The notes under the pieces were generated by a model that had not been told where the DNA came from, did no database searches, and was given only the letters and a program-made list of their open reading frames with translations. A DNA stretch of 64,000 nucleotides from NCBI GenBank assembly GCA_002791545.1, contig PFXG01000033.1, positions 1 to 64,000 of the forward strand. Reading direction: 5' to 3'. The stretch comes from Zetaproteobacteria bacterium CG_4_9_14_3_um_filter_49_83 (lineage in GTDB: Bacteria > Pseudomonadota > Zetaproteobacteria > Mariprofundales > Mariprofundaceae). Shown here piece after piece: positions 9,915-45,861 of the stretch. Each line of letters begins with the position of its first letter. The stretch's first letter is position 1. Made by a program: the position numbers and the translations under genes.

Positions 9915-11180
9915 ATGAACGAAGCATTCATTCCAATGCCCCTCGCAGTAATATTATTGCTTATATTACTGCTGCTTTCGGCATTTTTCTCCGGTTCTGA
10001 AACCGCACTGACACGTGCCCGTAAAACACGCCTGCGTATTCTGAAAAATGAAGGCAATGAAGGTGCACACCATGCAGAAACCCTGCTGCAAACACCTGAA
10101 ACACTTTTGACCGCTATTCTTCTGGGTAATAATCTGGTTAATTTTGCTGCTTCCAGCATCACCAGTGTCATTTTTTTACTCGCTTTTGGCGAAGCAGGCA
10201 TTGTCTATGCCACGCTATTCATGACAATTGTAGTTGTCGTATTTTCCGAAGTCCTGCCTAAAACCATTGCTGTAGCTTATGCCGAACCCATCGCCTGCAA
10301 AATCGCTCGTCCCCTGCAATGGATTATTCGCATCCTGAATCCTATTATCATACTCGTTCTGGGATTCATCGGCATAATAAAAAAACTACTCAAAATTGCT
10401 CCGCATCAGGAAAAATCATTTACACATCAGGAACTGGCCACGATGGTCGGACTCAGTGCCGAAACAGGTGGACTGGACAGCGCCCGTGAGCAAATGCTGG
10501 CTAACAGCCTTCGATTACATGAAGTGCCTGTTAAATCGTTGATGACACACAGAAAAAACATGGTGATGCTTGATGCCATGCAAAGTGTGACGCTCGCCAA
10601 GCAGGAATCCCTGCAAAAACCGCATTCCCGTTACCCCGTTTACCAGCATGATCAGGATGATATTCTGGGCGTATTACACATCCGCGACCTGATCAGTATG
10701 GACGATTCAGATCAACCTCTGGGGCAAATGCTGCAATCGCAACGACCTTCTTATGTGCCTGCCAATCGAAATGCACTATCTCAGTTGTTCGATTTCCAAA
10801 AAAGCCGTCAGCACATGGCTATCGTCGTCGATGAGTTTGGTGATCTGGAGGGATTGATCACGCTTGAAGATATCCTGGAAGATATTGTTGGTGAAATTGT
10901 CGATGAGCATGATGCTCCTGAAAACAGTGAGACATGGAAACAAGCCGATGGCTCTATCATCGTCAGTGGCACAGCTAATCTTCATGATCTCAACCAACTG
11001 CTTGGGTCCGATATGCCGGAAGATAAAGCCACCACCATTGGTGGTTTGATTGTCCATACACTCGGCTTTCAGCCTGAATTTAAATTATCGATTCCAATGG
11101 ATGATTTGCGCGTTGAGATTCTTCAAATTCAGCACGAGCGTATTACCCGTGTTCGCATACACGAGGCCGCACCAGAGTAA
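9915..11180 (+). CDS. CNNM/CorC-family transporter protein with CBS pair
   Basis: A 421-residue protein. The N-terminal CNNM (DUF21) membrane domain starts AVILLLILLLLSAFFSGSETALTRARKTRL, the usual signature. A CBS pair follows (KSLMTHRKNMVMLDAMQSV; YVPANRNALSQLFDFQKSRQHMAIVVDEFGDLEGLITLEDILEDIVGEIVDE), and a C-terminal CorC/HlyC transporter-associated domain ends the protein. Family members are linked to Mg2+/Co2+ efflux and are often mis-named hemolysins. The gene is 17 bp after the CcsA-like gene. It is convergent with the uracil-DNA glycosylase gene. Confidence 0.88.
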   Translation: MNEAFIPMPLAVILLLILLLLSAFFSGSETALTRARKTRLRILKNEGNEGAHHAETLLQTPETLLTAILLGNNLVNFAASSITSVIFLLAFGEAGIVYATLFMTIVVVVFSEVLPKTIAVAYAEPIACKIARPLQWIIRILNPIIILVLGFIGIIKKLLKIAPHQEKSFTHQELATMVGLSAETGGLDSAREQMLANSLRLHEVPVKSLMTHRKNMVMLDAMQSVTLAKQESLQKPHSRYPVYQHDQDDILGVLHIRDLISMDDSDQPLGQMLQSQRPSYVPANRNALSQLFDFQKSRQHMAIVVDEFGDLEGLITLEDILEDIVGEIVDEHDAPENSETWKQADGSIIVSGTANLHDLNQLLGSDMPEDKATTIGGLIVHTLGFQPEFKLSIPMDDLRVEILQIQHERITRVRIHEAAPE

Positions 11181-11196
11181 AGAGCCCACCCTCGAA

Positions 11197-11814
11197 CTAT
11201 TTTCTTACTGCCAGCAAACGTAATTTAAGCGCCTGCAAATCTGACCATGCCTTTTGTTTCTGGCCGGGTGATCGAAGCAGAAAAGCCGGATGGTATACGA
11301 CATAAACCGGGATCCCGTGATAATCATGCCATTGTTCACGTAACTGCCCCAGCGGAGCATCTGTCTTCAGCACGGCTTGAGCCGCCACACGGCCGAGCAA
11401 ACAAATCACTTTTGGAGCAATCAGACGTACCTGCTGGTCAAACCAGTGTGCGCAGGCTTCAACTTCTTCTGCTAACGGATCGCGATTGTTCGGAGGTCTG
11501 CATTTGACTATATTCATGACGTAAATTTGGGAGCGCTCAAGCTCTATAGCCTGCAACATTCGATCCAGAAGATTTCCGACTGTGCCTACAAATGGTTTAC
11601 CCTGCTCATCTTCATGCAGAACAGGAGCCTCTCCGATCAACAACAACTCTGCATCGGGTTTACCAACACCGAAAACAGTTTGAGTTCGCCCCTGAGACAA
11701 CACACATCGGGTACAAGCAGAAACATCTCTTTCTAATTTACTCAGCGTGCTGGTATTGGATGGTTCAGGAAACCTGATATGACTTTCGTCCTGCTTACTG
11801 ATTGATTGCTGCAT
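11197..11814 (-). CDS. type-4 (family 4) uracil-DNA glycosylase
   Basis: A 205-residue base-excision repair enzyme that removes uracil from DNA. Four cysteines for a [4Fe-4S] cluster are present: C34 and C37 (CTRC), C105 (KCRPPNNRDP) and C121. Motif A is GEAPVLHEDEQGKPFVG (61-77), where the usual GEAPG has Val in place of the last Gly. The motif B HPAFLLR is present. I chose the ATG at 11814 over a TTG at 11916 because a clear intrinsic terminator of fbp (11841-11878) lies between the two, making the longer form unlikely. It is convergent with the CNNM gene. Confidence 0.85.
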   Translation of the reverse strand: MQQSISKQDESHIRFPEPSNTSTLSKLERDVSACTRCVLSQGRTQTVFGVGKPDAELLLIGEAPVLHEDEQGKPFVGTVGNLLDRMLQAIELERSQIYVMNIVKCRPPNNRDPLAEEVEACAHWFDQQVRLIAPKVICLLGRVAAQAVLKTDAPLGQLREQWHDYHGIPVYVVYHPAFLLRSPGQKQKAWSDLQALKLRLLAVRK

Positions 11815-11840
11815 ACTATTGCCCTGTTCGGTTTGCCCGG

Positions 11841-11878
11841 CATCAAAACAGGAAATCGGCGTATGAACGCCGATTTCC
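11841..11878 (-). terminator. intrinsic terminator of fbp
   Basis: A perfect 11-bp stem, GGAAATCGGCG at 11851-11861 paired with CGCCGATTTCC at 11868-11878, with a 6-base loop. On the minus strand it is followed by TGTTTTG. It lies 47 bp after the fbp stop codon and before the uracil-DNA glycosylase ATG. Confidence 0.85.
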
Positions 11879-11924
11879 TTTAAATACACCTGAGTAAATG
11901 TTGAGCGATCTGTCAAAGCAGCAA

Positions 11925-34931: not shown

Positions 34932-36362
34932 CTAATAGGCATCTTTAGAAATGAGGATAGAGAATGTTTTGATGAGGATCGTGATGTCGAGCCAAATCGA
35001 CCAGTTATTGATATAAGTCATATCATACTCCACTCTTTTCCTCATCTTAGCGATGGTATCCGTTTCTCCCCTGCAACCATTAATTTGCGCCAGCCCGGTC
35101 ATACCGGGAAGAATACGATGACGTGACATATAGGCCTCGATCTTTCCGGCAAAATATTCATTGTGCTCCTTGGCATGAGGGCGCGGACCAACGAGCGACA
35201 TCTCACCTTTAAGCACATTAATTAATTGTGGCAGCTCATCAATACTGGTTCTGCGAATAAATCGCCCGATACGGGTCACGCGACTATCATTTTTCCTGGC
35301 CTGCGTCACCGTACCTTCTTTTTCCTCATGTACTACCATACTTCGAAATTTCAGTACCTTGATAATTTTCCCGTCAAGCCCATGCCGTTCCTGCCGATAC
35401 AGGATGGGGCCCGGGGAAGAGAGTTTGATGGCTACGGCCACTGCCAGCATGATCGGAAAGCACAAAATCAACGTAATAAAAGCCAGTGATTTATCCATCA
35501 GCATTTTACTGATGCGTGCCCCCCCGACTATCGGACTTTCAGAGAGGAAATAGAGCGGTACCCCTGCCACTTCTCTTACACTCGGGCTAACTGTGTGCAA
35601 GCCATAAAAATCCGGAGCCCACACCACATCAACATTGAGATCAACAAGATCAAGTTGCAGGTCACGAATCTGGTGAGCATTCCTCATAGGCAGAGCAAAA
35701 TAAACCCTCCGAGCCTTATGTTTTTCAACCACAGAGCGTAAATCAGCGATACTACCCAATTTAGGTAAATCTTTTTCATACCAGCTCAGCTCAGCGTCAT
35801 CACTGACTACACCGACAATCTTGTGATACATCCAGGGATTATGATTGATATGCGTAGCAAGGTGCCCCCCCAATTCACTGTTACCAACCAGAATCGAAGG
35901 AATTTTTTCATGACTGATATACTGCGTTTTAACCATATCTATCACAATATGTGCGCCAATCTGGGCGGCCATAGCCAGGAAATACCAGGCTACAATGACC
36001 GGGCGGGAATAGTCCTCCGATACTTTTGTCACAAAAGCCAGTACAACCAGCATCATCAACACCTTACTCCAGGCCCAGGTCAGGCTCATTGCCATACTGG
36101 TTTTGCCTGAATGTCGGCGATATACGCCCGAATTAAAATAACCCAACCACATAAAAATCGGTACGATGGCTGCCAGGTAGTTGTAAATGGAAGTATCGAA
36201 AATATGCCGAATTTCCACACACAAAAAGAGCGCCCCTTCGACAATGGCTATATCTAACAATAATTGCAGCTTGATTGAAACCTTACCGGATGACTGAAGT
36301 TTATTCCGGAAATGAATTGGATGATGTGCCCCATCAGAAGATTTTTTTGACTCACTTTTCAT
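34932..36362 (-). CDS. undecaprenyl-phosphate glucose phosphotransferase (WcaJ-like)
   Basis: 476 residues. Four or five TM segments at the N-terminus and a CoA_binding_3-type middle domain (SILVGNSELGGHLATHINHNP) are followed by one TM and the C-terminal bacterial sugar transferase domain: LSSPGPILYRQERHGLDGKIIKVLKFRSM, RRTSIDELPQLINVLKGEMSLVGPRPHA, and RHRILPGMTGLAQINGCRGET. It starts synthesis by loading glucose-1-phosphate on undecaprenyl phosphate. The gene lies at the upstream end of the exopolysaccharide transcription unit on the minus strand. Confidence 0.93.
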   Translation of the reverse strand: MKSESKKSSDGAHHPIHFRNKLQSSGKVSIKLQLLLDIAIVEGALFLCVEIRHIFDTSIYNYLAAIVPIFMWLGYFNSGVYRRHSGKTSMAMSLTWAWSKVLMMLVVLAFVTKVSEDYSRPVIVAWYFLAMAAQIGAHIVIDMVKTQYISHEKIPSILVGNSELGGHLATHINHNPWMYHKIVGVVSDDAELSWYEKDLPKLGSIADLRSVVEKHKARRVYFALPMRNAHQIRDLQLDLVDLNVDVVWAPDFYGLHTVSPSVREVAGVPLYFLSESPIVGGARISKMLMDKSLAFITLILCFPIMLAVAVAIKLSSPGPILYRQERHGLDGKIIKVLKFRSMVVHEEKEGTVTQARKNDSRVTRIGRFIRRTSIDELPQLINVLKGEMSLVGPRPHAKEHNEYFAGKIEAYMSRHRILPGMTGLAQINGCRGETDTIAKMRKRVEYDMTYINNWSIWLDITILIKTFSILISKDAY

Positions 36363-36448: not shown

Positions 36449-37681
36449 TTAATCGTAAACATCGATCAATGCAGTCGCCAGAGCCGGCCCGCCGTAGTAC
36501 TGATGTGCATCCACTCCCCAGCAGAAGTTTCCTTCCAGAAGCCTGACTCCGGATGGCGTCATCGCGATATCCCAGCCAATGCTGGAAAGATCAGAAAAAC
36601 TGGCATGCGCCCTGGTGGCAATATCCACAGCATCCTTCCAGAAGCGCAATTCTTTCCCGCCGGCCTTGCGGATAAGATTTGCATACTCTGCATCAGATTC
36701 ATCACCTTCCCGAAGGATTCGCCCCGAACTCACATCCACATCCAGGAACAAGCAAGAATCAGGTTCATCTAAAGACGGAACTTCCAGCCTTGCAAAGATT
36801 GCGCCTGATTTTCCTCTGATAACACCTGTAACAAGGCGCAGAACGACCAGCTTTTGACCATACAGGGCAGTAATTTCAGGGTGATTTTGCAGTAAGGGTT
36901 GCACCAGATAATCATACTGCTGAATCTGGTTGTTCATAAATGCCAGAATTTTCTCGTTACTTTCAGTGCTACCCTTTCCGATTAACGCATATTTTCCAGA
37001 CACCTCATCAAAAGAGAGTATATAAGCTCCCTTGGCCTGGCTTCCACAATTGGGTTTAAGAAAACATGAACTGCCAGAGAATAATCTCTCAGCTACCACT
37101 GGCTCACCTTTACACAGAAAGTCAAAGGTCTCTACCGATGCAATACTAAGACTTGCCATCATCTCAGAAAATGCCTTTTTATCTCTCATGTAATGCAGTG
37201 TCCGCTCACTCACGCCTAGCGAATGAACCAGATGCCATTGAGCTGATTCATGCGGGTAAATATATTCCAACCACTGTTCTCGTGGCCTGCAAAACAGGGT
37301 AAACTCATAATAAGCGTATGCAGGAATAGCATGCAGTAATGCAAGTCCGACCAAATCAAGACATTGCCTTCGTGCAGATACGCCAAACTTCGAAGTTACA
37401 CCACCACTATGATCTCTCATACAGGTGTAAATCTGTTTCCAGCTAAAAAAAAACATCCAGGTGATAGCGCTATATAAAACAATCACTACCCAGCTCCATC
37501 TGGACAATTTCGGCCATGCCCCCAGAAATACTCTGCGATGCAGTCGAATAGCCTTGCTCTGTCCGGGAAGAAGAAAACGCCAACTCACAAGCGTGTGTGG
37601 CTCCGGGTAGCATAACACCTGCTGGCAAAGCTTTTGCCAGAAACCGGCAATATGGGTTTCAGCCAATTCCGCTTTCTGCAT
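36449..37681 (-). CDS. sugar-transfer-associated ATP-grasp family protein
   Basis: 410 residues. An N-terminal TM segment (SWVVIVLYSAITWMFFFSWK) is followed by an ATP-grasp domain of the sugar-transfer-associated type (PF14397-like): FLKPNCGSQAKGAYILSF, ARLEVPSLDEPDSCLFLDVDV, and SSIGWDIAMTPSGVRLLEGNFCWGVDAHQYYGG, the characteristic metal-binding motif. ATP-grasp enzymes ligate a carboxylate to an amine or thiol. It overlaps the end of the ABC exporter gene by 23 bp, so it belongs to the RiPP transcription unit. It may modify the peptide product; that is an inference. It has no clear ribosome site. Confidence 0.75.
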   Translation of the reverse strand: MQKAELAETHIAGFWQKLCQQVLCYPEPHTLVSWRFLLPGQSKAIRLHRRVFLGAWPKLSRWSWVVIVLYSAITWMFFFSWKQIYTCMRDHSGGVTSKFGVSARRQCLDLVGLALLHAIPAYAYYEFTLFCRPREQWLEYIYPHESAQWHLVHSLGVSERTLHYMRDKKAFSEMMASLSIASVETFDFLCKGEPVVAERLFSGSSCFLKPNCGSQAKGAYILSFDEVSGKYALIGKGSTESNEKILAFMNNQIQQYDYLVQPLLQNHPEITALYGQKLVVLRLVTGVIRGKSGAIFARLEVPSLDEPDSCLFLDVDVSSGRILREGDESDAEYANLIRKAGGKELRFWKDAVDIATRAHASFSDLSSIGWDIAMTPSGVRLLEGNFCWGVDAHQYYGGPALATALIDVYD

Positions 37682-39383
37682 CTAGCACAACCCTATGTTT
37701 GACATGCTGAATGGTAGTTTCCCGGTGTGCGATGATGATGATGGTCAATTTACCATCCATATGTTGCAGTGCCTGCTGGATTTTCTTCTCGTTTTTCCGG
37801 TCAAGCGAACTTGTTGCCTCATCCAGAATCAACAGCTGTGGTCGTGAAAGAAGTGCTCTGGCCAGAGCCAATCTCTGGCGCTCACCGCCTGACAAGCGAA
37901 CACCCCGATCTCCAATGGTTGTATCCAGCCCGTTGGGAAGCCTTCTCACAAACCGGGCCGCTTCAGCTAACGCCAATACTTCCCACAACTCATTTTCATC
38001 CGCCTGCGGTCTAACCCAGCTCAAGTTAGCTCGCACACTGTCGTGAAACAGAAATACTTCCTGAGTGATGTATGCGACACCGTGTCGCCATGCCAGACGC
38101 TGCTCGCCCTCCAGCAATATTGAGTCACAAAAAATCTTTCCTGAATCGGGTATCAGCAAGCCCGCAATCAAGTCGGCCAGTGTAGATTTCCCTGCCCCGG
38201 ATTCACCTATCAATGCCACCGTTGAGTTTTTCCTGATCGTCAAAGAAAAATGATCGATCACCTGTCTGTTGCCACTTTTATAGCGAAACGACACATCTTG
38301 CATGACAAGTTCATTTTCGATTCGAGGTGCTTTGGTATCGCGCCCAATCGCGGGCTCTCCTGCTGCTTCACATGCAGTTATCATCTGACGCACGTCTTCA
38401 AATGATGGCAACTGATGTAAAATATTCTGGTAACCGGATTGAAGGCTCGATATTTGCGGCAGTAAGCGGGAAAAAATCAGCAACAGCAATAGCAGCGTTG
38501 CCAGAGAGACCGATAGCCATTCAACAGCAAAATAAAAGAAAATTGAAAATGACACCACTGCCCCGATCATATAAATCATCTGGGTACGTGCATTGATGCG
38601 ACTCAACGTCACATACTGTTGCTCAAGTGAATTACTTACGCGTTCAAATTCATCAGCATATTGCTCTTCACTACCGTAGCTCTTGATCATCTTCAGGCTA
38701 GCAAGCTGCTCACTGACCATCTGAAAAATATCTTTATAGCCATCAAGCTCCGCTTCTCCCGAGTGAAGCACAGCTTTATGTAACGGCAGTAGAATCACCA
38801 GCAAAGCTGCTCCACAAATGATGGCAAGCAAGCTCATTTGCCATGACAGCATTAGCGAAATCAGCACATACACCGTAATCAGAACAAGCTGACTCATCAG
38901 ATTAAGCATCAGGTAACTTGCATAGCCGATATCCTGAACCTGTGATGTCAGTCCATGGGCAATATCAGACATCTTATTACTGATAATAAACTGCCACTGA
39001 CTATGCAGTAGCGCCCGATAGAGGCGGTTTCTGACATAACAAATAAAATCCTGCTGAACAGATGCGGTTAATACCGTCAGAAAATAATTCAGGCTGGCAA
39101 CCAACGATACAATGACAATGTATGAGAAAAGTATCAGAGGCAACGTCAGCGTGACACCTATTTCAGAAAAAAAACGGGCAATAATACTGGCAAACTCTGA
39201 GCTGGCGCTTGCACCAAAGTCAAAGCCAACCAGATGCAACAAAGGGATCAGCATCAACAACCCCACACCGGCTGTCAGCCCTTTTAACATCATCAAAGAG
39301 AAAACAAACCCCAGTCGCCAAGGCGAAAAATGGAAGAACTCCAGAAAGGCAGTCCATAACGCAGCAAGTCGACTAGATTGCAT
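37659..39383 (-). CDS. ABC exporter (lasso peptide D-type)
   Basis: A fused permease-ATPase of about 574 residues. Six hydrophobic segments are followed by an ATPase domain: Walker A LIGESGAGKSTLADLIAGLL, Q-loop ITQEVFLFHD, signature RLSGGERQRLALARALL, Walker B LLILDEATSSLD and the H-loop IAHR. It lies directly after the B2 and B1 genes, the order found in lasso clusters, so it is the probable exporter and self-immunity protein. The start at MQSSRLAALW was chosen because it overlaps the end of the B2 gene by 11 bp; a longer open frame runs through B2. No N-terminal C39 peptidase domain is present. Confidence 0.9.
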   Translation of the reverse strand: MQSSRLAALWTAFLEFFHFSPWRLGFVFSLMMLKGLTAGVGLLMLIPLLHLVGFDFGASASSEFASIIARFFSEIGVTLTLPLILFSYIVIVSLVASLNYFLTVLTASVQQDFICYVRNRLYRALLHSQWQFIISNKMSDIAHGLTSQVQDIGYASYLMLNLMSQLVLITVYVLISLMLSWQMSLLAIICGAALLVILLPLHKAVLHSGEAELDGYKDIFQMVSEQLASLKMIKSYGSEEQYADEFERVSNSLEQQYVTLSRINARTQMIYMIGAVVSFSIFFYFAVEWLSVSLATLLLLLLIFSRLLPQISSLQSGYQNILHQLPSFEDVRQMITACEAAGEPAIGRDTKAPRIENELVMQDVSFRYKSGNRQVIDHFSLTIRKNSTVALIGESGAGKSTLADLIAGLLIPDSGKIFCDSILLEGEQRLAWRHGVAYITQEVFLFHDSVRANLSWVRPQADENELWEVLALAEAARFVRRLPNGLDTTIGDRGVRLSGGERQRLALARALLSRPQLLILDEATSSLDRKNEKKIQQALQHMDGKLTIIIIAHRETTIQHVKHRVVLDAESGIG

Positions 39384-39897
39384 GGAAATCGTGCCGTTTG
39401 GGACGGCTGGAATGTAATATTGCCGGGTCCACAAAAGTGGAAACGATAGTAAATCCCTCATGCCCATCATAACCGGTGATAATCGATGGCCCGACGCTGA
39501 CCCATGCATGCGCAATCAACACATCACTTTCGCTTTTATGCGCTGCTTGATTTCCCGCTATTTTACCGACACCCAGATAAAGCACATAAGGAATGCCATA
39601 GTAAGCCAGTACACATCTTGCCATCATGGCCTGCACCAGACATTTCGATTGCCATGGTGTCTGCTTTGCTACCAGTTCTGTCATGCGACCAACCCACAAG
39701 GCCTGTTGCAACTGCGTAGTTGTCACGATAACTGTCAATTCAGCATTTTGATAATGCTGCCCGAACAAAGGCGTCAACCAGCGAAACGGCAATATCAGCA
39801 TGGTAAATCTGGCGATACCGCTGAGACACAGAAGCAGGATAATCCAAAGCTTTTCCTTGTTTTTCAACATAAGAAATTTACCTAAAAGGCGTTTCAT
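39373..39897 (-). CDS. lasso peptide biosynthesis B2 protein (leader protease)
   Basis: 174 residues with a hydrophobic N-terminal segment (WIILLLCLSGIARFTMLIL). The transglutaminase-like catalytic triad is Cys86 (TPWQSKCLVQAMMAR), His130 (LIAHAWVSVG) and Asp144 (GYDG). The pattern W-x-S-x-C-L-x-Q-A with GIPYVLYLGV is diagnostic of the B2 family. It cleaves the precursor after the leader, with the B1/RRE protein presenting the leader. B1 is encoded 1 bp upstream. It overlaps the exporter gene. Confidence 0.92.
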   Translation of the reverse strand: MKRLLGKFLMLKNKEKLWIILLLCLSGIARFTMLILPFRWLTPLFGQHYQNAELTVIVTTTQLQQALWVGRMTELVAKQTPWQSKCLVQAMMARCVLAYYGIPYVLYLGVGKIAGNQAAHKSESDVLIAHAWVSVGPSIITGYDGHEGFTIVSTFVDPAILHSSRPKRHDFHAI

Positions 39898-39898
39898 A

Positions 39899-40180
39899 TC
39901 ATGCCTTCAAAATAATATTGCGTTCAGCCATCTGTTCGAGAAAAGCAAGCACATCCTGTCTGCATATCGATTCCTCGACATCAAATCGTTTGCAGAGTCC
40001 GGAACAGATATCAGCAACACTGATTTCCTCATCCAGCATATTCCATATCTCAGAGCCAATCGCATCCATGCCGTAGTATTCTCCCCGTTCAATACTCATC
40101 ATCACAATCTCACCATCCATGTCGGAAAAAACCATTTCCGGGTTTCGTTTAATCACTAAATCCATTGTTATTGTCATCAT
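39899..40180 (-). CDS. PqqD-family RRE protein (lasso B1)
   Basis: 93 residues of the PqqD fold, the RiPP recognition element that binds the precursor leader. The sequence has the expected pattern VFSDMDGEIVMMSIERGEYYGMDAIGSEIWNMLDEEISVADICSGLCKRFDVE, then a helical C-terminus. An AAGAGG site lies directly before the two adjacent ATGs (40180 or 40177). It begins the minus-strand B1-B2-D-ATP-grasp unit and is divergent from the kinase gene across about 240 bp. Confidence 0.92.
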   Translation of the reverse strand: MMTITMDLVIKRNPEMVFSDMDGEIVMMSIERGEYYGMDAIGSEIWNMLDEEISVADICSGLCKRFDVEESICRQDVLAFLEQMAERNIILKA

Positions 40181-40418: not shown

Positions 40419-41351
40419 ATGAAAGAAAACATCACGCTCTATCGGGCATTTGGCCTATTTATCAGTTCAGAACTCAAGCTTCCTCCGCTAGCTATGGCTG
40501 AGAATCAGCATACAGCGGCGGATGTCAGCATACGTATCGCTCAAATTAGCAAGAGAGGCCTGAATTGCCCACTCATAGATGGAGACTGGTATCAGGCATC
40601 TCCCATGCAGTTCTGGATGCAAGTCGATGGTATTGCCTCTTTTACTGTCACCAATGGCAGCAGCATTGTAATTGACCCCGAACCGGAAGCAGAGCCGCGA
40701 AGCATTCAACTCTATTTACTTGGTTCATGCATGGGTGCGCTCTTGCTCCAGAAAAAGTATCTTGTCATTCATGGGAACGCTATCCGTTTCAACAACCACT
40801 GCGTGATATTCGCAGGGCCATCCGGCGCGGGCAAATCAACACTTGCTGCGGCATTTCATCGCCGTGGTTACGATATTCTTGCCGATGATGTTTGTCCGGT
40901 AAATGGCGATGGGTACGTCATACCCAGCTTCCCTCAATTGAAACTGTGGCACGATGCCACTGAAAAGCTGAAGATTGACACCTCGGACTTAGAGAGAGTT
41001 CACCTTGATATCGAAAAATTTTCATTCCCTTTTCAACAAGCTTTTAACCAGCCTGTCCCGCTTGCTGCGATCTACGTTCTTTCCTCAAACAATCAAAACA
41101 GATTCAATATTGATATACTCAAGGGCATGAAAAGCTTTGATGCTTTACTACAAAACACCTACCGTCTGCTATTTCTTAAAGGACTAGGTTTGATGCCGAC
41201 GCATTTTCAGCAGTGCTGCGAACTGGCCAGCCGTATTCATGTCGCTCGCATCAGTCGACCAGATCAGGATTTTCAACTGGATACACTGGTGGATGTTATT
41301 CTTGCTGACCTGTGGGAAAAGAACCTTGTTTTACCAAAACCAAAACCCTGA
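40419..41351 (+). CDS. HPr-kinase-like lasso peptide tailoring kinase
   Basis: 310 residues. The C-terminal half is an HprK-like P-loop kinase: LVIHGNAIRFNNHCVIFAGPSGAGKSTLAAAFHRRGYDILADDVCPV, with Walker A GPSGAGKST (133-141) and the metal-binding DD (156-157). HprK homologues in lasso clusters such as the paeninodin cluster phosphorylate the side chain of the C-terminal Ser of the precursor. All three precursor candidates here end in Ser, which fits. A perfect TATAAT lies at 40401-40406, only 12 bp before the ATG. The cyclase gene follows after 39 bp. Confidence 0.85.
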   Translation: MKENITLYRAFGLFISSELKLPPLAMAENQHTAADVSIRIAQISKRGLNCPLIDGDWYQASPMQFWMQVDGIASFTVTNGSSIVIDPEPEAEPRSIQLYLLGSCMGALLLQKKYLVIHGNAIRFNNHCVIFAGPSGAGKSTLAAAFHRRGYDILADDVCPVNGDGYVIPSFPQLKLWHDATEKLKIDTSDLERVHLDIEKFSFPFQQAFNQPVPLAAIYVLSSNNQNRFNIDILKGMKSFDALLQNTYRLLFLKGLGLMPTHFQQCCELASRIHVARISRPDQDFQLDTLVDVILADLWEKNLVLPKPKP

Positions 41352-41390: not shown

Positions 41391-43274
41391 ATGATTTTTG
41401 GTGAAATGCACCGGGGATCAAGCCAGGGGTATGCTGACCAGCTCATTGCTCTGTCAGAAGATGGATGCATCACAAATATCTTTCCTGCTGATATTACAGC
41501 CCATTGGCGCAATGAGCAGGTTACACTGATTCAACATACATTATGGAACACTGTTGAATCGAAGTCTGATCACAACCCCACCACTGATGCAGATCCGCAA
41601 CTGCTGATCACGGCCTGGGCACGAATCGACAACCGTGCTGAACTTGGGGCCAAGCTTGCAATCCATGCCTCAGACTCCTCTGTCCCTGACAGCAACTTCA
41701 TCCTTCAGGCCTACAAAAAATGGGGAGAGAATTGTGTCGATCATCTGATTGGTGATTTTACATTTGTCATCTATGACCTGCGTGAGCAGAAGCTTTTCTG
41801 TGCGCGCGATCATATGGGCGTGCGCCCCTTCTATTATCATCTCTCGGAGGAGGGCTTTGTGTTCTCCTCCAGTGTCGCCCTGTTTCATCAGCTCGACGGC
41901 TTTGAACTAGAACCATCGCAGCAGTGGATAGCTGAATTTATAGTCGATCTCTCCATGAGCTTCGATACCACCCCCTATGCCAATATTATGAAACTGCCTC
42001 CAGCACACTGCCTGACTGTCAGCACTGACAGCAGTCAGCTCAGGCAATATTTCCACTTCTCGCCAGAGAGCACGCTTCATCTGGAAAATTCTCAGGGCTA
42101 TGTCGATGCCTACAGAGAAGTACTGGAAGAATCCATTCGCTGCCGACTGCGCAGCGACTACCCGATTGGCACTGAACTCAGCGGGGGCATTGACTCGTCT
42201 ACCATTGCTGCATTTGCCGCCCGCATGCTGTCAGATGCGCCTTCCCGGTTATATGCATTTGCCTTCTCCTGCTATGAAAAAGAGCATGAATATATTCAAG
42301 CGGTTAGCCATGTATGCCCTGAGATGGCAACGCACGAATTTCACGGCCCCATAGAAGTTCCTCACGCATCGTTACTCGACCACAGCCTGCAAGTTCTCGG
42401 TTACCCTGCCGAAGTTGAATTTTCTTACGAACAGGAGCCTTTTTATCGCAAAGCCGAAGATCTCGGCATTCGCAGCATACTTTCCGGTTTTGGCGGGGAT
42501 GAATTTGTAACTACACAAGGAGGTCTGGCTCGCATAGAATTACTGGTTGCTAAAGAATTTAAACAGCTTTATCGGACCACTCAAGGGAATCCTATGGCCC
42601 GGCTGGCCCGGCTGCTCAAGCTGGCCTTGCACTGGCAACACATCAAAAACCGCAAATATGAACCCAACTATTTTGCGGCCTATATACATCATTGGCAGAA
42701 TCAACCACTAAGATCTGAATGGGTCAAAAAATTTAATCTTCACCAACGCTATATCGACATCTCAACATTCGACTCCGGCTATAGCAACCTCAATCAATTT
42801 ATTCTGGAAAAGTGCTGGACACCTTTTGTGACCACTCGCATGGAAAACTGCAGCATGATGGCCGCTTCCCGAAAACTTGAAGCAAGTTGGCCGCTGCTTG
42901 ATGTTCGTCTGATTAATCTATTTCTCTCTATTCCTGCGTCAGAAAAGCATGCCAATGGAATATCCCGATTTCTGCATCGACGAGCTATCAATGGCATTGT
43001 GCCAGATAAGGTGACATGGAAAAAATCAAAGGATATGGGGAATTTTAACAAGCAGACGCCAATCATAGCGCCCGATACTCCCTTGCAAAACATACACCCT
43101 GACCTGTTGAAGATGATTGATATTGAAAAAGTACATACTCAGTTGAAGACAATATTGAGTCAAACCAGTGATCTGCAAAGTAATGATCTAATCGATTTTA
43201 TTGAAATTGCAGGGCAACTAAAACACCTGAACCAATGGCTTCAAAAATCAACCGGATATTGTCATCATAAATGA
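41391..43274 (+). CDS. lasso peptide macrolactam synthetase (asparagine-synthetase-like cyclase, C protein)
   Basis: 627 residues. The N-terminal class II amidotransferase-like domain lacks the Cys nucleophile after Met1 (it begins MIFGEMHRGSS), so it is not a glutaminase. GDFTFVIYDLREQKLFCARDHMGVRPFYYH still gives the fold. The synthetase domain has the PPi-loop SGGIDSS (264-270), then SILSGFGGDEFVTTQGG and LDVRLINLFLSIP. Lasso C proteins adenylate an Asp/Glu side chain and form the isopeptide bond with the N-terminal amine. The gene is downstream of the kinase on the plus strand, and ends 3 bp from the end of the convergent precursor A1. Confidence 0.92.
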   Translation: MIFGEMHRGSSQGYADQLIALSEDGCITNIFPADITAHWRNEQVTLIQHTLWNTVESKSDHNPTTDADPQLLITAWARIDNRAELGAKLAIHASDSSVPDSNFILQAYKKWGENCVDHLIGDFTFVIYDLREQKLFCARDHMGVRPFYYHLSEEGFVFSSSVALFHQLDGFELEPSQQWIAEFIVDLSMSFDTTPYANIMKLPPAHCLTVSTDSSQLRQYFHFSPESTLHLENSQGYVDAYREVLEESIRCRLRSDYPIGTELSGGIDSSTIAAFAARMLSDAPSRLYAFAFSCYEKEHEYIQAVSHVCPEMATHEFHGPIEVPHASLLDHSLQVLGYPAEVEFSYEQEPFYRKAEDLGIRSILSGFGGDEFVTTQGGLARIELLVAKEFKQLYRTTQGNPMARLARLLKLALHWQHIKNRKYEPNYFAAYIHHWQNQPLRSEWVKKFNLHQRYIDISTFDSGYSNLNQFILEKCWTPFVTTRMENCSMMAASRKLEASWPLLDVRLINLFLSIPASEKHANGISRFLHRRAINGIVPDKVTWKKSKDMGNFNKQTPIIAPDTPLQNIHPDLLKMIDIEKVHTQLKTILSQTSDLQSNDLIDFIEIAGQLKHLNQWLQKSTGYCHHK

Positions 43275-43277
43275 CAA

Positions 43278-43433
43278 TTAACTACCCACTCTTTTATTCC
43301 TTTCCTTGCGGCGAACTCTTTTCTTCCCCGAAGCTGCTTCTGTAAATATATGATTCAGGATAATGAGCTTCGGCTTCTTCCACAGCAAACTTCCCGTTTG
43401 GTTTTCATGATGTTGATGTTTGTCGCCATTCAT
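43278..43433 (-). CDS. lasso-type precursor peptide A1
   Basis: 51 residues. The ribosome site AGGAGGG lies about 9 bp before the ATG. The leader has W18-x-K-P21-x-L23-x-I-L26 and then T31-E32; the segment after E32 is AASGKKRVRRKERNKRVGS, nine Lys/Arg in 19 residues. The end VGS is shared with A2 and A3. Counting from the residue two after Thr, position 12 is Glu and positions 7-9 are R, V and R, so no ring acceptor lies at the usual place. The stop is 3 bp from the end of the convergent cyclase gene. Confidence 0.8.
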   Translation of the reverse strand: MNGDKHQHHENQTGSLLWKKPKLIILNHIFTEAASGKKRVRRKERNKRVGS

Positions 43434-43442
43434 GGCCAGTCG

Positions 43443-43490
43443 CCCTCCTGATATGATGAGTCGGATTAGTCATCATATGTAACCTTAACC
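43443..43490 (-). promoter_or_regulatory. conserved upstream block of precursor A1
   Basis: On the minus strand, GGTTAAGGT (43482-43490) is followed 8 bp later by ATGACTAAT (43465-43473) and then the AGGAGGG site. The same block precedes A2 (43695-43731). It may hold a regulator site or be carried by the duplication. Arms GATGA and TCATC around the centre also make a short inverted repeat here. Confidence 0.4.
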
Positions 43491-43528
43491 GGCATCATAT
43501 TATATGCAACTACACCGACATGACAAAC

Positions 43529-43684
43529 TCAACTACCAACTTTTTTGTTTTGCTCTTTAGTTCTTATCTTTTTTTTACCTGATCCCGCTTCCGTAAACAT
43601 ATGACTGAGAATAAAAAGTTCCGGCTTATTCCAAACCGAATCACCCGTCTGTTTATTAAGAAGTTGCAGTTTGTCGTCAAACAT
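43529..43684 (-). CDS. lasso-type precursor peptide A2
   Basis: 51 residues, with GGAGGA about 10 bp before the ATG. The leader motif W18-N-K-P21-E-L23-F-I-L26 and T31-E32 is kept. The predicted core is AGSGKKKIRTKEQNKKVGS, highly basic, ending VGS, with Glu at position 12. The alignment to A1 needs no gap; all three share SGK, the Arg at core position 9, Glu12, Asn14 and VGS. Amino-acid differences outside those positions are numerous, so the copies have been kept under selection instead of being recent duplicates. The upstream block GGTTAAGGT...ATGACTAAT matches that of A1. Confidence 0.8.
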   Translation of the reverse strand: MFDDKLQLLNKQTGDSVWNKPELFILSHMFTEAGSGKKKIRTKEQNKKVGS

Positions 43685-43694
43685 ATCAAATGAT

Positions 43695-43731
43695 CCTCCT
43701 GAAATTATTAGTCATAAATACCACCTTAACC
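43695..43731 (-). promoter_or_regulatory. conserved upstream block of precursor A2
   Basis: GGTTAAGGT at 43723-43731, 7 bp, then ATGACTAAT at 43707-43715, then the GGAGGA ribosome site, matching the block in front of A1. Confidence 0.4.
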
Positions 43732-43778
43732 TACCTTATATTACTTTCAATTATCGACATCAGGGCATCAGCAAAAAC

Positions 43779-43937
43779 TCAACTGCCCACATTTTTATTT
43801 TGCTCATGAGTTCTCTGTTTCATTTTCCCTGAGCCCACTTCTGTAATACTATAACTAAGAATAGAAAGTCTAGGCTTCCTCCAACCCAAAACAGCATTTT
43901 CTGATTTTTGATGAAGCAAATACTTGTTACTATTCAT
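43779..43937 (-). CDS. lasso-type precursor peptide A3
   Basis: 52 residues with a GGAGG site 11 bp before the ATG. The leader motif is W19-R-K-P22-R-L24-S-I-L27 with T32-E33; the core is VGSGKMKQRTHEQNKNVGS with Glu at position 12. This is the most divergent copy and the first in transcription direction. A TATAAT box with extended -10 (TGGTATAAT) lies 53 bp upstream at 43990-43998 on the minus strand. The three copies could form one transcript, A3-A2-A1. Confidence 0.8.
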   Translation of the reverse strand: MNSNKYLLHQKSENAVLGWRKPRLSILSYSITEVGSGKMKQRTHEQNKNVGS

Positions 43938-43989
43938 GGTTACGTCATCCTCCATCAATGCATGCTAACTGCATTTAATTTCTATAATT

Positions 43990-44034: not shown

Positions 44035-45234
44035 ATGAGTTTAATTTTTACCTTTTCTGCCAGCCCGGAATTCAAGCTATTGCTTGAACTAACGCATCCT
44101 GAACGCTTAACCAATGAGAGTAAGTTCATCTCTGAAATACACATTCCATCTGTTGACTGGAGTAAATTTCTGGACGCCGTCGAATGGCACCGCATGACAC
44201 CGCAGGTTTATCAGCAACTTAAATTACTTAAAGGGGATATCCCCGAAGAATATTTCTCCCGCTTAAAATGCATGAACGATCATTGCCGCATGACATCACT
44301 TACCATGATATCCTGGCTGGCAAGACTGTCCCTACGCCTTGGTGATCAAAATATTGATTTTATTGTATTAAAGGGTGCTGGCCTGTCGCAGCACCTTTAT
44401 AGCAAGAGCAGTTACCGGGAAGTTCGGGACATTGACATTCTGGTCGATGAAAAAAATATCAATGCCGCAGAACGGGTACTATTTGCCTCGGGCTTTATCA
44501 GAACCACACCGTATCCCGGCGCAACCCCCAGGCAACTGCGATATTTCAACAAGCACAAAAAAGATCGCGAATACTACCATCCTGATGACGGAACCATCGT
44601 GGAGCTGCACTGGCGACTCATCGAAGTGGACCATCCGTATAACCCGGTTATCCATGACCTTCTCAGCACAGAATACAGTATTACTCTTCAAGGAAAGAGT
44701 ATACCTATCCCCACTGTTTCTCCCACAAACTTATGGCTTTATCTGAGCCTGCACGGCTCGCTTGCCGGTTGGTATCGTATGCGCTGGATCAATGATATCG
44801 CCTTACTGCTTTATTATGACCCTCCTGAAGATTGGGCTACCCTTTTCAGGCTAGCAGAACATCATGGCTGCAAACAAAGTGTCATCGAAGCCGTTGGTCT
44901 AGCCTGTTCACTTTATCACCTTCAAGTTCCTGCCCCCATTCGACTCAGCATCAGGCACAACAAAGGCATACAAAAAAGCATCTTATCTTCTGCCAACCAA
45001 CTATTTTATAAGAAGAGCACATGTGGGAACATCATCACGTATTCCCGTCGAATCTTCTTTTGCTCCCCTATAAGCAGCCTGCTGAAACACTTGATAGGTC
45101 GGATTTTTATCTCAACGGGTGATTTTGAGAAATTCCATCTGCCAGATCGATTCTTTTTCGGCTATTATCTGCTACGCCCATTTTCTTTTTTATATCGCCG
45201 AATTCTATCAAAACAATCCCACCAAAAAAATTGA
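44035..45234 (+). CDS. nucleotidyltransferase family protein (NTP_transf_5-like) of the RiPP cluster
   Basis: 399 residues. The nucleotidyltransferase motif is FIVLKGAGLSQHLYSKSSYREVRDIDILVDEKNI, with the metal-binding D132 and D134; YYHPDDGTIVELHWRLIEVDHPYNP follows, as in the PF14907-type family. Homologues are common tailoring genes in lasso clusters, where a nucleotidyl-group transfer is proposed, but the reaction is unproved in general. An AGGAG site lies before the ATG. The C-terminal part is basic and hydrophobic. It is divergent from the precursor genes. Confidence 0.8.
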   Translation: MSLIFTFSASPEFKLLLELTHPERLTNESKFISEIHIPSVDWSKFLDAVEWHRMTPQVYQQLKLLKGDIPEEYFSRLKCMNDHCRMTSLTMISWLARLSLRLGDQNIDFIVLKGAGLSQHLYSKSSYREVRDIDILVDEKNINAAERVLFASGFIRTTPYPGATPRQLRYFNKHKKDREYYHPDDGTIVELHWRLIEVDHPYNPVIHDLLSTEYSITLQGKSIPIPTVSPTNLWLYLSLHGSLAGWYRMRWINDIALLLYYDPPEDWATLFRLAEHHGCKQSVIEAVGLACSLYHLQVPAPIRLSIRHNKGIQKSILSSANQLFYKKSTCGNIITYSRRIFFCSPISSLLKHLIGRIFISTGDFEKFHLPDRFFFGYYLLRPFSFLYRRILSKQSHQKN

Positions 45235-45262: not shown

Positions 45263-45334
45263 ATGGCAATGAAAAACGCACTAAATAACGACCCCTTTCA
45301 TACTGTTACCTTTCCAACAGAGCAAAACTCCTGA
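45263..45334 (+). CDS. possible 23-codon coupled peptide
   Basis: An ATG after CAGGG opens a 23-residue frame (starts MAMKNALNNDPF, ends TEQNS) whose TGA overlaps the next gene's ATG as TGATG. It lies in the +1 frame relative to the nucleotidyltransferase gene. It could be a real small peptide, a translational coupling device, or the remnant of a longer C-terminus. Not recognised. Confidence 0.3.
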   Translation: MAMKNALNNDPFHTVTFPTEQNS

Positions 45335-45861
45335 TGATCTCTGAAAAAATCTCCCTTGAACTATCATCAATCTGTCAATCCTGCGGCATGTGCTGCGACG
45401 GCACATTATTTCATCAGGCCAATTTGGAAAATAAGCATGACAGGGCTCTGGCCGACTCACTTGAATTAGTCACCAAACAACAACATGATAAACTTGTCTT
45501 CCAGCTTCCCTGCCATCATTTCAACCGGCAATGTACAATCTATCAGCAGCCTCGCCCGGCAATATGCCAGGGCTATTTTTGTCAGCCATTAAAAATGGCA
45601 AAGCGACAAAAAATATCTCTGCATCAAGCACATGATACAATTTCCACAGCCATGAAACTTAAACATAAATTCGATGTTGCCCGCATTAACTTTCCTGAAT
45701 TCGATAAAAAAACAGTTCTTGGAATTCGTGATGAATTGATATTCGATCACCTGCCGGAAGAACAACAGATAGCCATGCGTATCAAATATACCCCGCTACT
45801 ATTGATTGGCATGAAGCTCTTTCCGTTAATCCAGGAAATCATCAGTACCTCAAAAAAATAA
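45334..45861 (+). CDS. YkgJ-family cysteine cluster protein
   Basis: 175 residues. The cysteine cluster is CQSCGMCCDG near the start, with a later C in PCHHFNRQCTIYQQPRPAICQGYFCQP. YkgJ proteins probably bind an Fe-S cluster or zinc; the role is unknown. It follows the nucleotidyltransferase gene and a small coupled ORF, so it may be part of the RiPP transcription unit. A bidirectional terminator follows. Confidence 0.78.
   Translation: MISEKISLELSSICQSCGMCCDGTLFHQANLENKHDRALADSLELVTKQQHDKLVFQLPCHHFNRQCTIYQQPRPAICQGYFCQPLKMAKRQKISLHQAHDTISTAMKLKHKFDVARINFPEFDKKTVLGIRDELIFDHLPEEQQIAMRIKYTPLLLIGMKLFPLIQEIISTSKK

Follow-up and report, generated by a model that had tools for sequence, protein, structure and literature searches.

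The closest described systems are lasso peptide clusters that carry a kinase. In published systems (PMC9266682, PMC8498205) the linear precursor first has its C-terminal Ser phosphorylated by an HPr-type kinase, after which B1 and B2 take off the leader and C closes the ring; a nucleotidyltransferase-type protein, PsmN, is required for adding a hexose to the phosphate. BsfK phosphorylates core Ser3, not the C-terminal Ser (PMC10368454). Two rules concern us most. Known lasso rings have 7–9 residues (PMC8498205), and Thr stands at −2 in 94% of lasso leaders (PMC11420955). A validated exception to the second rule is BsfA, which has Ile(−2) and whose I(−2)A variant is not cleaved (PMC10368454).

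The locus described here sits in a window of 64,000 nucleotides (by which we mean the whole stretch of zetaproteobacterial DNA analysed). Its cluster type is a known one, the kinase/nucleotidyltransferase lasso cluster, and the window holds a variant with an odd cleavage site and an accessory ATP-grasp gene. We consider it probable that three small genes, A1–A3, are the precursors of one lasso-peptide cluster, with phosphorylation of the C-terminal Ser, cleavage after S35 and a ring joining G36 to E44. The features, in order along the window, are:

36449..37681, minus strand: ATP-grasp protein (PF14397); K209, E300, D371, E383 and N385 conserved
37659..39515, minus strand: ABC transporter (D), likely exporter; true start probably 3' of the listed TTG
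39373..39897, minus strand: B2, transglutaminase-like cysteine leader protease; C86 and H130 intact
39899..40180, minus strand: B1, PqqD-type leader-binding protein (RRE); NF033536 match
40419..41351, plus strand: HPr-kinase-like peptide kinase (K); HprK-related matches; P-loop 133-141, H118, D156 and D157 intact
41391..43274, plus strand: lasso-type cyclase (C), asparagine-synthetase fold; PF00733, NF033535
43278..43433, minus strand: precursor A1, 51 codons; sequence MNGDKHQHHENQTGSLLWKKPKLIILNHIFTEAASGKKRVRRKERNKRVGS; proposed core GKKRVRRKERNKRVGS (G1–E9 ring)
43529..43684, minus strand: precursor A2, 51 codons; sequence MFDDKLQLLNKQTGDSVWNKPELFILSHMFTEAGSGKKKIRTKEQNKKVGS; proposed core GKKKIRTKEQNKKVGS
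43779..43937, minus strand: precursor A3, 52 codons; sequence MNSNKYLLHQKSENAVLGWRKPRLSILSYSITEVGSGKMKQRTHEQNKNVGS; proposed core GKMKQRTHEQNKNVGS
44035..45234, plus strand: nucleotidyltransferase-fold protein (N, PF14907), candidate PsmN-like phospho-Ser modifier

On one side of the precursor array lie C and K, followed by the minus-strand genes for B1, B2, D and the ATP-grasp protein; N lies on the other. The first-pass annotation of this DNA had claimed B1, B2, C, D, kinase and nucleotidyltransferase genes around the precursors, and all are there. What it overlooked was the PF14397 ATP-grasp gene, as well as the polybasic character of the cores, the shift of the Thr and what a C-terminal Ser implies. 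The lasso hallmark of B1 and B2 beside a precursor is present, both proteins scoring above their model cut-offs (92.9 bits against 80 with NF033536 for B1, which retains the tyrosines of its YYG motif; 71.4 against 33 with NF033537 for B2). So is the Asn-synthetase-type macrolactam cyclase, by its PF00733 match and its catalytic motifs, SGGxDSS and GGDE, with a score against NF033535 (368.5 bits) that is below that model's cut-off of 525 and with a departure, EASW, from the motif of its relatives. The leader motif (Y/W)-x-x-P-x-L is found in all of A1–A3, as the annotation's comparison with lasso leaders had implied: it reads W-x-K-P-x-L here, and the W also occurs in most relatives. The paeninodin-type hallmark, an HPr-type kinase with a C-terminal Ser on the precursor, and the pseudomycoidin-type one, a nucleotidyltransferase-type gene accompanying the kinase, are there too, the latter through PF14907 (2.3e-49 for N, with D132 and D134 present). 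The catalytic residues of B2, K, C, the ATP-grasp protein and N were judged by conservation among relatives. Lasso B2 and PF14397 ATP-grasp are each the sole copy found in their own genome. Read from its sequence, the neighbourhood is an intact lasso gene set. Next past the nucleotidyltransferase comes a gene (45334-45861) for a putative metal-binding CxxCxxCC protein (PF03692), and the cluster is bordered at 34932-36362 by a sugar-transferase-like ORF, of exopolysaccharide type by eye.

Are A1–A3 real genes? Three paralogous minus-strand ORFs of 51, 51 and 52 codons had been proposed, and they lie exactly where they were placed. The strong ribosome sites ascribed to them are AGGAGG or GGAGG, 10–11 nt 5' of each ATG, and the residues said to be common to them (W-x-K-P-x-L...T-E, SGK, R, Glu, N-K-x-V-G-S) are all invariant, among 20 invariant positions in the full-length alignment that include W, K, P, L, I, L, T, E, SGK, R, E, NK and VGS. 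A3 (ORF3) is extendable to a TTG at 43958, but a Shine-Dalgarno-like GGAGG stands 11 nt before its ATG at 43937. Together the genes form a tandem array, with a 119-nt repeat at a spacing of 251/250 nt; the two inner spacers hold another, short repeat. Across leader motif plus core, the pair P1–P2 is identical at 82%, 82% and 38% of codon positions 1, 2 and 3, respectively; because position 3 has diverged far more than 1 and 2 between copies, purifying selection acts on the precursor protein. By the same measure the first 17 codons are under little constraint. These are raw identities, dN/dS being unusable here (dS was saturated or the method failed). As judged from this codon-position signal, A1–A3 are real coding genes, maintained for their C-terminal two thirds. 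A precursor HMM built from 15 precursors of other genomes, with no window sequence included, ranks them first, second and third of 617 small window ORFs at 10.2, 9.2 and 6.9 bits (weak scores in absolute terms), the next ORF reaching 4.7. The peptides match no Pfam, NCBIfam or PHROG family, and profile A1 found no further copy in the same genome or in 77 other genomes of the class, and no convincing match in ten related genomes. Weak matches across the family were dismissed, almost all lying within long ORFs of about 350 codons. Promoter-like sites 5' of A1 (TTGTCA-16-TATAAT) and A3 were discounted at 3 observed against 3.1 in shuffles. The sole terminator-like match is inside ORF2.

The cyclase lends support to the lasso-type RiPP reading with which the annotation began, over and above the lasso B1, B2 and C matches. 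It joins 17 counterparts from other lasso-type clusters in one clade at 100/100, these 18 members standing apart from the twelve cyanobacterial and other sequences sampled. The nearest, at 44–48% identity, belong to Desulfurivibrionaceae, Geobacteraceae, another deltaproteobacterial MAG and genome G922. Homologous precursors had been expected beside homologous clusters and there they are, in other phyla, patterned W-x-x-P-x-L...T...GK...E...Ser-COOH, so the lasso proposal withstood the comparison. Small ORFs near the clade's cyclases carry W/Y-x-x-P-x-L, usually a Thr 10–12 residues past the Pro, then G-K (or S/A), a Glu/Asp at about core position 8–9 and a final Ser, with core boundaries in relatives assigned by eye. 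Ser is the C-terminal residue in 3/3 window precursors and 15/15 relatives. Multi-precursor arrays recur, some relative loci having at least two tandem precursors (L031 has two); an uncultured Anaerolineales MAG has four (L029:7946-8821), with near-identical leaders and variable cores. A nucleotidyltransferase was seen in only 6 of the 17 nearest loci, some of which are on short contigs, and we count this against the favoured reading. Extra genes compared with the window encode a sulfotransferase, a TPR protein and a formyltransferase-like protein (L026:4754-7139, 10989-11897 and L025:15046-17669), and L026 carries a phage-tail-collar-domain protein with no counterpart in the window cluster. 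Cyclase matches also turned up in archaeal-labelled MAGs (L061, L063, L064, L066 and L071; Methanobacteriaceae, Euryarchaeota and Methanomicrobia, binning errors being possible), and L061, L066 and L071 have lasso-like precursor candidates as well, for example L066:11778-11915.

The host class comprises 78 genomes, 74 of them from a single family, and its phylum also includes Magnetococcales; elimination among proteobacterial classes makes it most likely Zetaproteobacteria (Mariprofundales), and the host probably an iron oxidiser. Neither A1–A3-like precursors nor a comparable cyclase occurs in the 77 other genomes of the host class (two genomes reach just 1e-60 at 30% identity), which suggests that the cluster was acquired from outside the class. 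The window cyclase has no plasmid match at 1e-60, and GC content shows no sharp island at the cluster. Horizontal acquisition also allows a bleaker reading, in which the precursors are relics of a disused cluster and the copies are drifting. The cluster's absence from those 77 genomes, its aberrant core composition and cyclase motif, and the freely evolving N-terminal 17 residues would all suit it. Against this, motif and core show a clear excess of third-position change, all three ORFs are intact and have good ribosome sites, and every enzyme conserves its catalytic residues; we regard decay as highly improbable.

If A1–A3 are working lasso precursors, where does the core start? All three read T-E-(A/V)-(A/G)-S-G-K-x6-E across the junction, with three extra residues between T31-E32 and the GK...E core compared with relatives. 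A core starting at G36 makes E44 position E9 and places Ala or Gly at −2; one starting right after T31-E32 makes it E12 and places Thr at −2. E44 is the sole acid past T31-E32 common to A1–A3, and only the G36 start gives a 7–9 ring with a usual first residue. GK at core positions 1–2 is common to eight relatives, and six of those eight cores are exactly 16 residues long, like all three in the window. On the strength of this core length and the GK-to-GK alignment we favour the G1–E9 register, giving it somewhat better than an even chance overall and rating it as quite probable if the product is a lasso. It has its weak points. Cleavage after S35 would leave Ala/Gly at −2, where most leaders have Thr and where Ala left BsfA uncleaved; T31, moreover, lies at P+10, the same place as Thr(−2) of L024, L029 and L110, and the YYG of B1 is kept. 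Were B2 to cut after E32, at the usual Thr(−2) site, the core would have 19 residues (AASGKK..., AGSGKK..., VGSGKM...), and A/V1 would be joined to E12 in a 12-residue macrolactam. The position and invariance of T31 and the retained B1 tyrosines favour this cut, and the window cyclase, alone in having EASW for E/D-Y-R-W, could have a loosened active site. A relative, L025, has a smaller offset of the same sort (T-S-G-S-GKPVFGGE, against T-A-GKSSPGGE in its close relative L110, both having 16 residues counted from GK onwards) and would form a 10-residue ring if its Thr is at −2. Yet a 12-residue ring falls outside the 7–9 residues of known lassos (PMC8498205), its first position would vary (A/A/V) whereas S-G-K is invariant, and its core departs from the 16-residue GK-core length of relatives; we think it unlikely. 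The two products would lie about 215–243 Da apart in predicted mass: for A1, A2 and A3 the calculated [M+H]+ is 1936.190, 1811.097 and 1823.929 with the G1–E9 lasso and 2165.296, 2026.188 and 2067.051 with the 12-residue ring, a phosphate adding 79.966 and a hexose another 162.053.

In the favoured G1–E9 register the cores are polybasic and chemically unlike those of relatives, with net charges of about +8, +6 and +3 (A1, A2 and A3) against +1 to −3 in fifteen relatives. The cyclase stands out as well, with E-A-S-W-P (EASW at 497–500) where the clade has (E/D)-Y-R-W-P, the Y in 17/17 and the R in 16/17. We count EASW against the favoured lasso reading, since relatives nearly always keep the Arg. 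That Arg is not indispensable, since the L030 cyclase has N in its place. Somewhat less likely than not, in our estimate, all of this adds up to a lasso system that departs from the Thr(−2) rule, whether by a later cut leaving Ala/Gly at −2 or by a 12-residue ring, makes strongly cationic peptides with a cyclase altered at E-Y-R, and uses an ATP-grasp tailoring step that the literature examined does not describe.

The ATP-grasp gene recurs. Of the 17 nearest cyclases 13 have a PF14397 gene beside them, of 61 more distant ones none (its bearers, with the window, are L021, L024–L026, L028–L034, L036 and L110), a pattern that hints at a step so far unstudied in a lasso clade spanning several phyla. 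The protein is predicted to fold as a plain ATP-grasp (mean pLDDT 80), a fold search gave general ATP-grasp matches only, and our guess from this model is that the protein may ligate something onto the peptide. PF14397 is not mentioned together with lasso peptides in the literature searched, nor do the titles and abstracts of the lasso, ATP-grasp and kinase literature searched name an ATP-grasp step in kinase-bearing lasso clusters. Could the ATP-grasp protein instead form the main linkages, in a graspetide-like or hybrid product, or the enzymes give a cyclic but unthreaded one? The gene is a conserved member of the cluster clade, its predicted fold resembles the graspetide ligase PsnB (among many ATP-grasps), and a short tail plugged by Lys/Arg might be a poor lock for a 9-residue ring. 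But PsnB scores low against the model (TM-scores 0.36/0.45) and does not outdo Ddl or RimK, the cores have a single acidic residue each, and B1, B2 and C all fall in lasso families. Such products strike us as very unlikely, and a lasso with a phosphorylated tail is the reading we keep.

From these genes we infer the following chemistry. B1 would bind the W-x-K-P-x-L leader motif, and the kinase would put a phosphate on the Ser that invariably ends the precursor; B2 would then cut off the leader, with S35 as its most likely last residue. Ring closure by the cyclase would link Gly36 (core 1) with Glu44 (core 9) and yield a presumably threaded peptide of 16 residues in total, in which a polybasic tail of 7 residues follows the 9-residue ring. 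The phosphorylated tail or C-terminus may receive a further modification from the nucleotidyltransferase-type protein, possibly with the ATP-grasp protein; export of the products would fall to the ABC transporter, and one enzyme set would process three related cores. By analogy, the invariant C-terminal Ser fits phosphorylation of the paeninodin/SyanK type and possibly glycosylation of the pseudomycoidin type; the phosphorylation site is less certain here because BsfK acts on Ser3. The role would most likely be export against competing bacteria. Lasso peptides together with Zetaproteobacteria receive no mention in the literature searched, so the window cluster may be the first lasso case in that class. 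A1–A3 also offer a natural test of both lasso rules, Thr at −2 and the 7–9 residue ring.

How does the locus compare with known systems? The cationic lasso peptides lariocidin and triculamin have a similarly high density of core Lys/Arg, a likeness of composition, and lariocidin differs in its 8-residue ring and its tailoring; the ribosome as a target of the window's peptides is pure speculation. The BsfA system of Bradymonas sediminis (Ile(−2), BsfK) likewise pairs a kinase with a penultimate leader residue other than Thr, provided that the window core starts at G36; the window then has Ala/Gly at −2 with Thr three residues earlier, and its most conserved candidate Ser is the C-terminal one, not core Ser3. 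Pseudomycoidin, phosphoglycosylated with PsmK and PsmN, has in common with the window a kinase, a nucleotidyltransferase-type gene and a C-terminal Ser; the window adds an ATP-grasp protein, and its sugar transfer is putative. Paeninodin/SyanA-type clusters, with the kinases PadeK, ThcoK and SyanK, share A, B1, B2, C, D, an HPr-type kinase and the C-terminal precursor Ser. Compared with these the window has three tandem precursors, a leader W for Y, Thr apparently displaced from −2, polybasic cores and an ATP-grasp gene, and in a tree that sampled cyanobacterial and other clusters, paeninodin's not among them, its cyclase clade stands apart.
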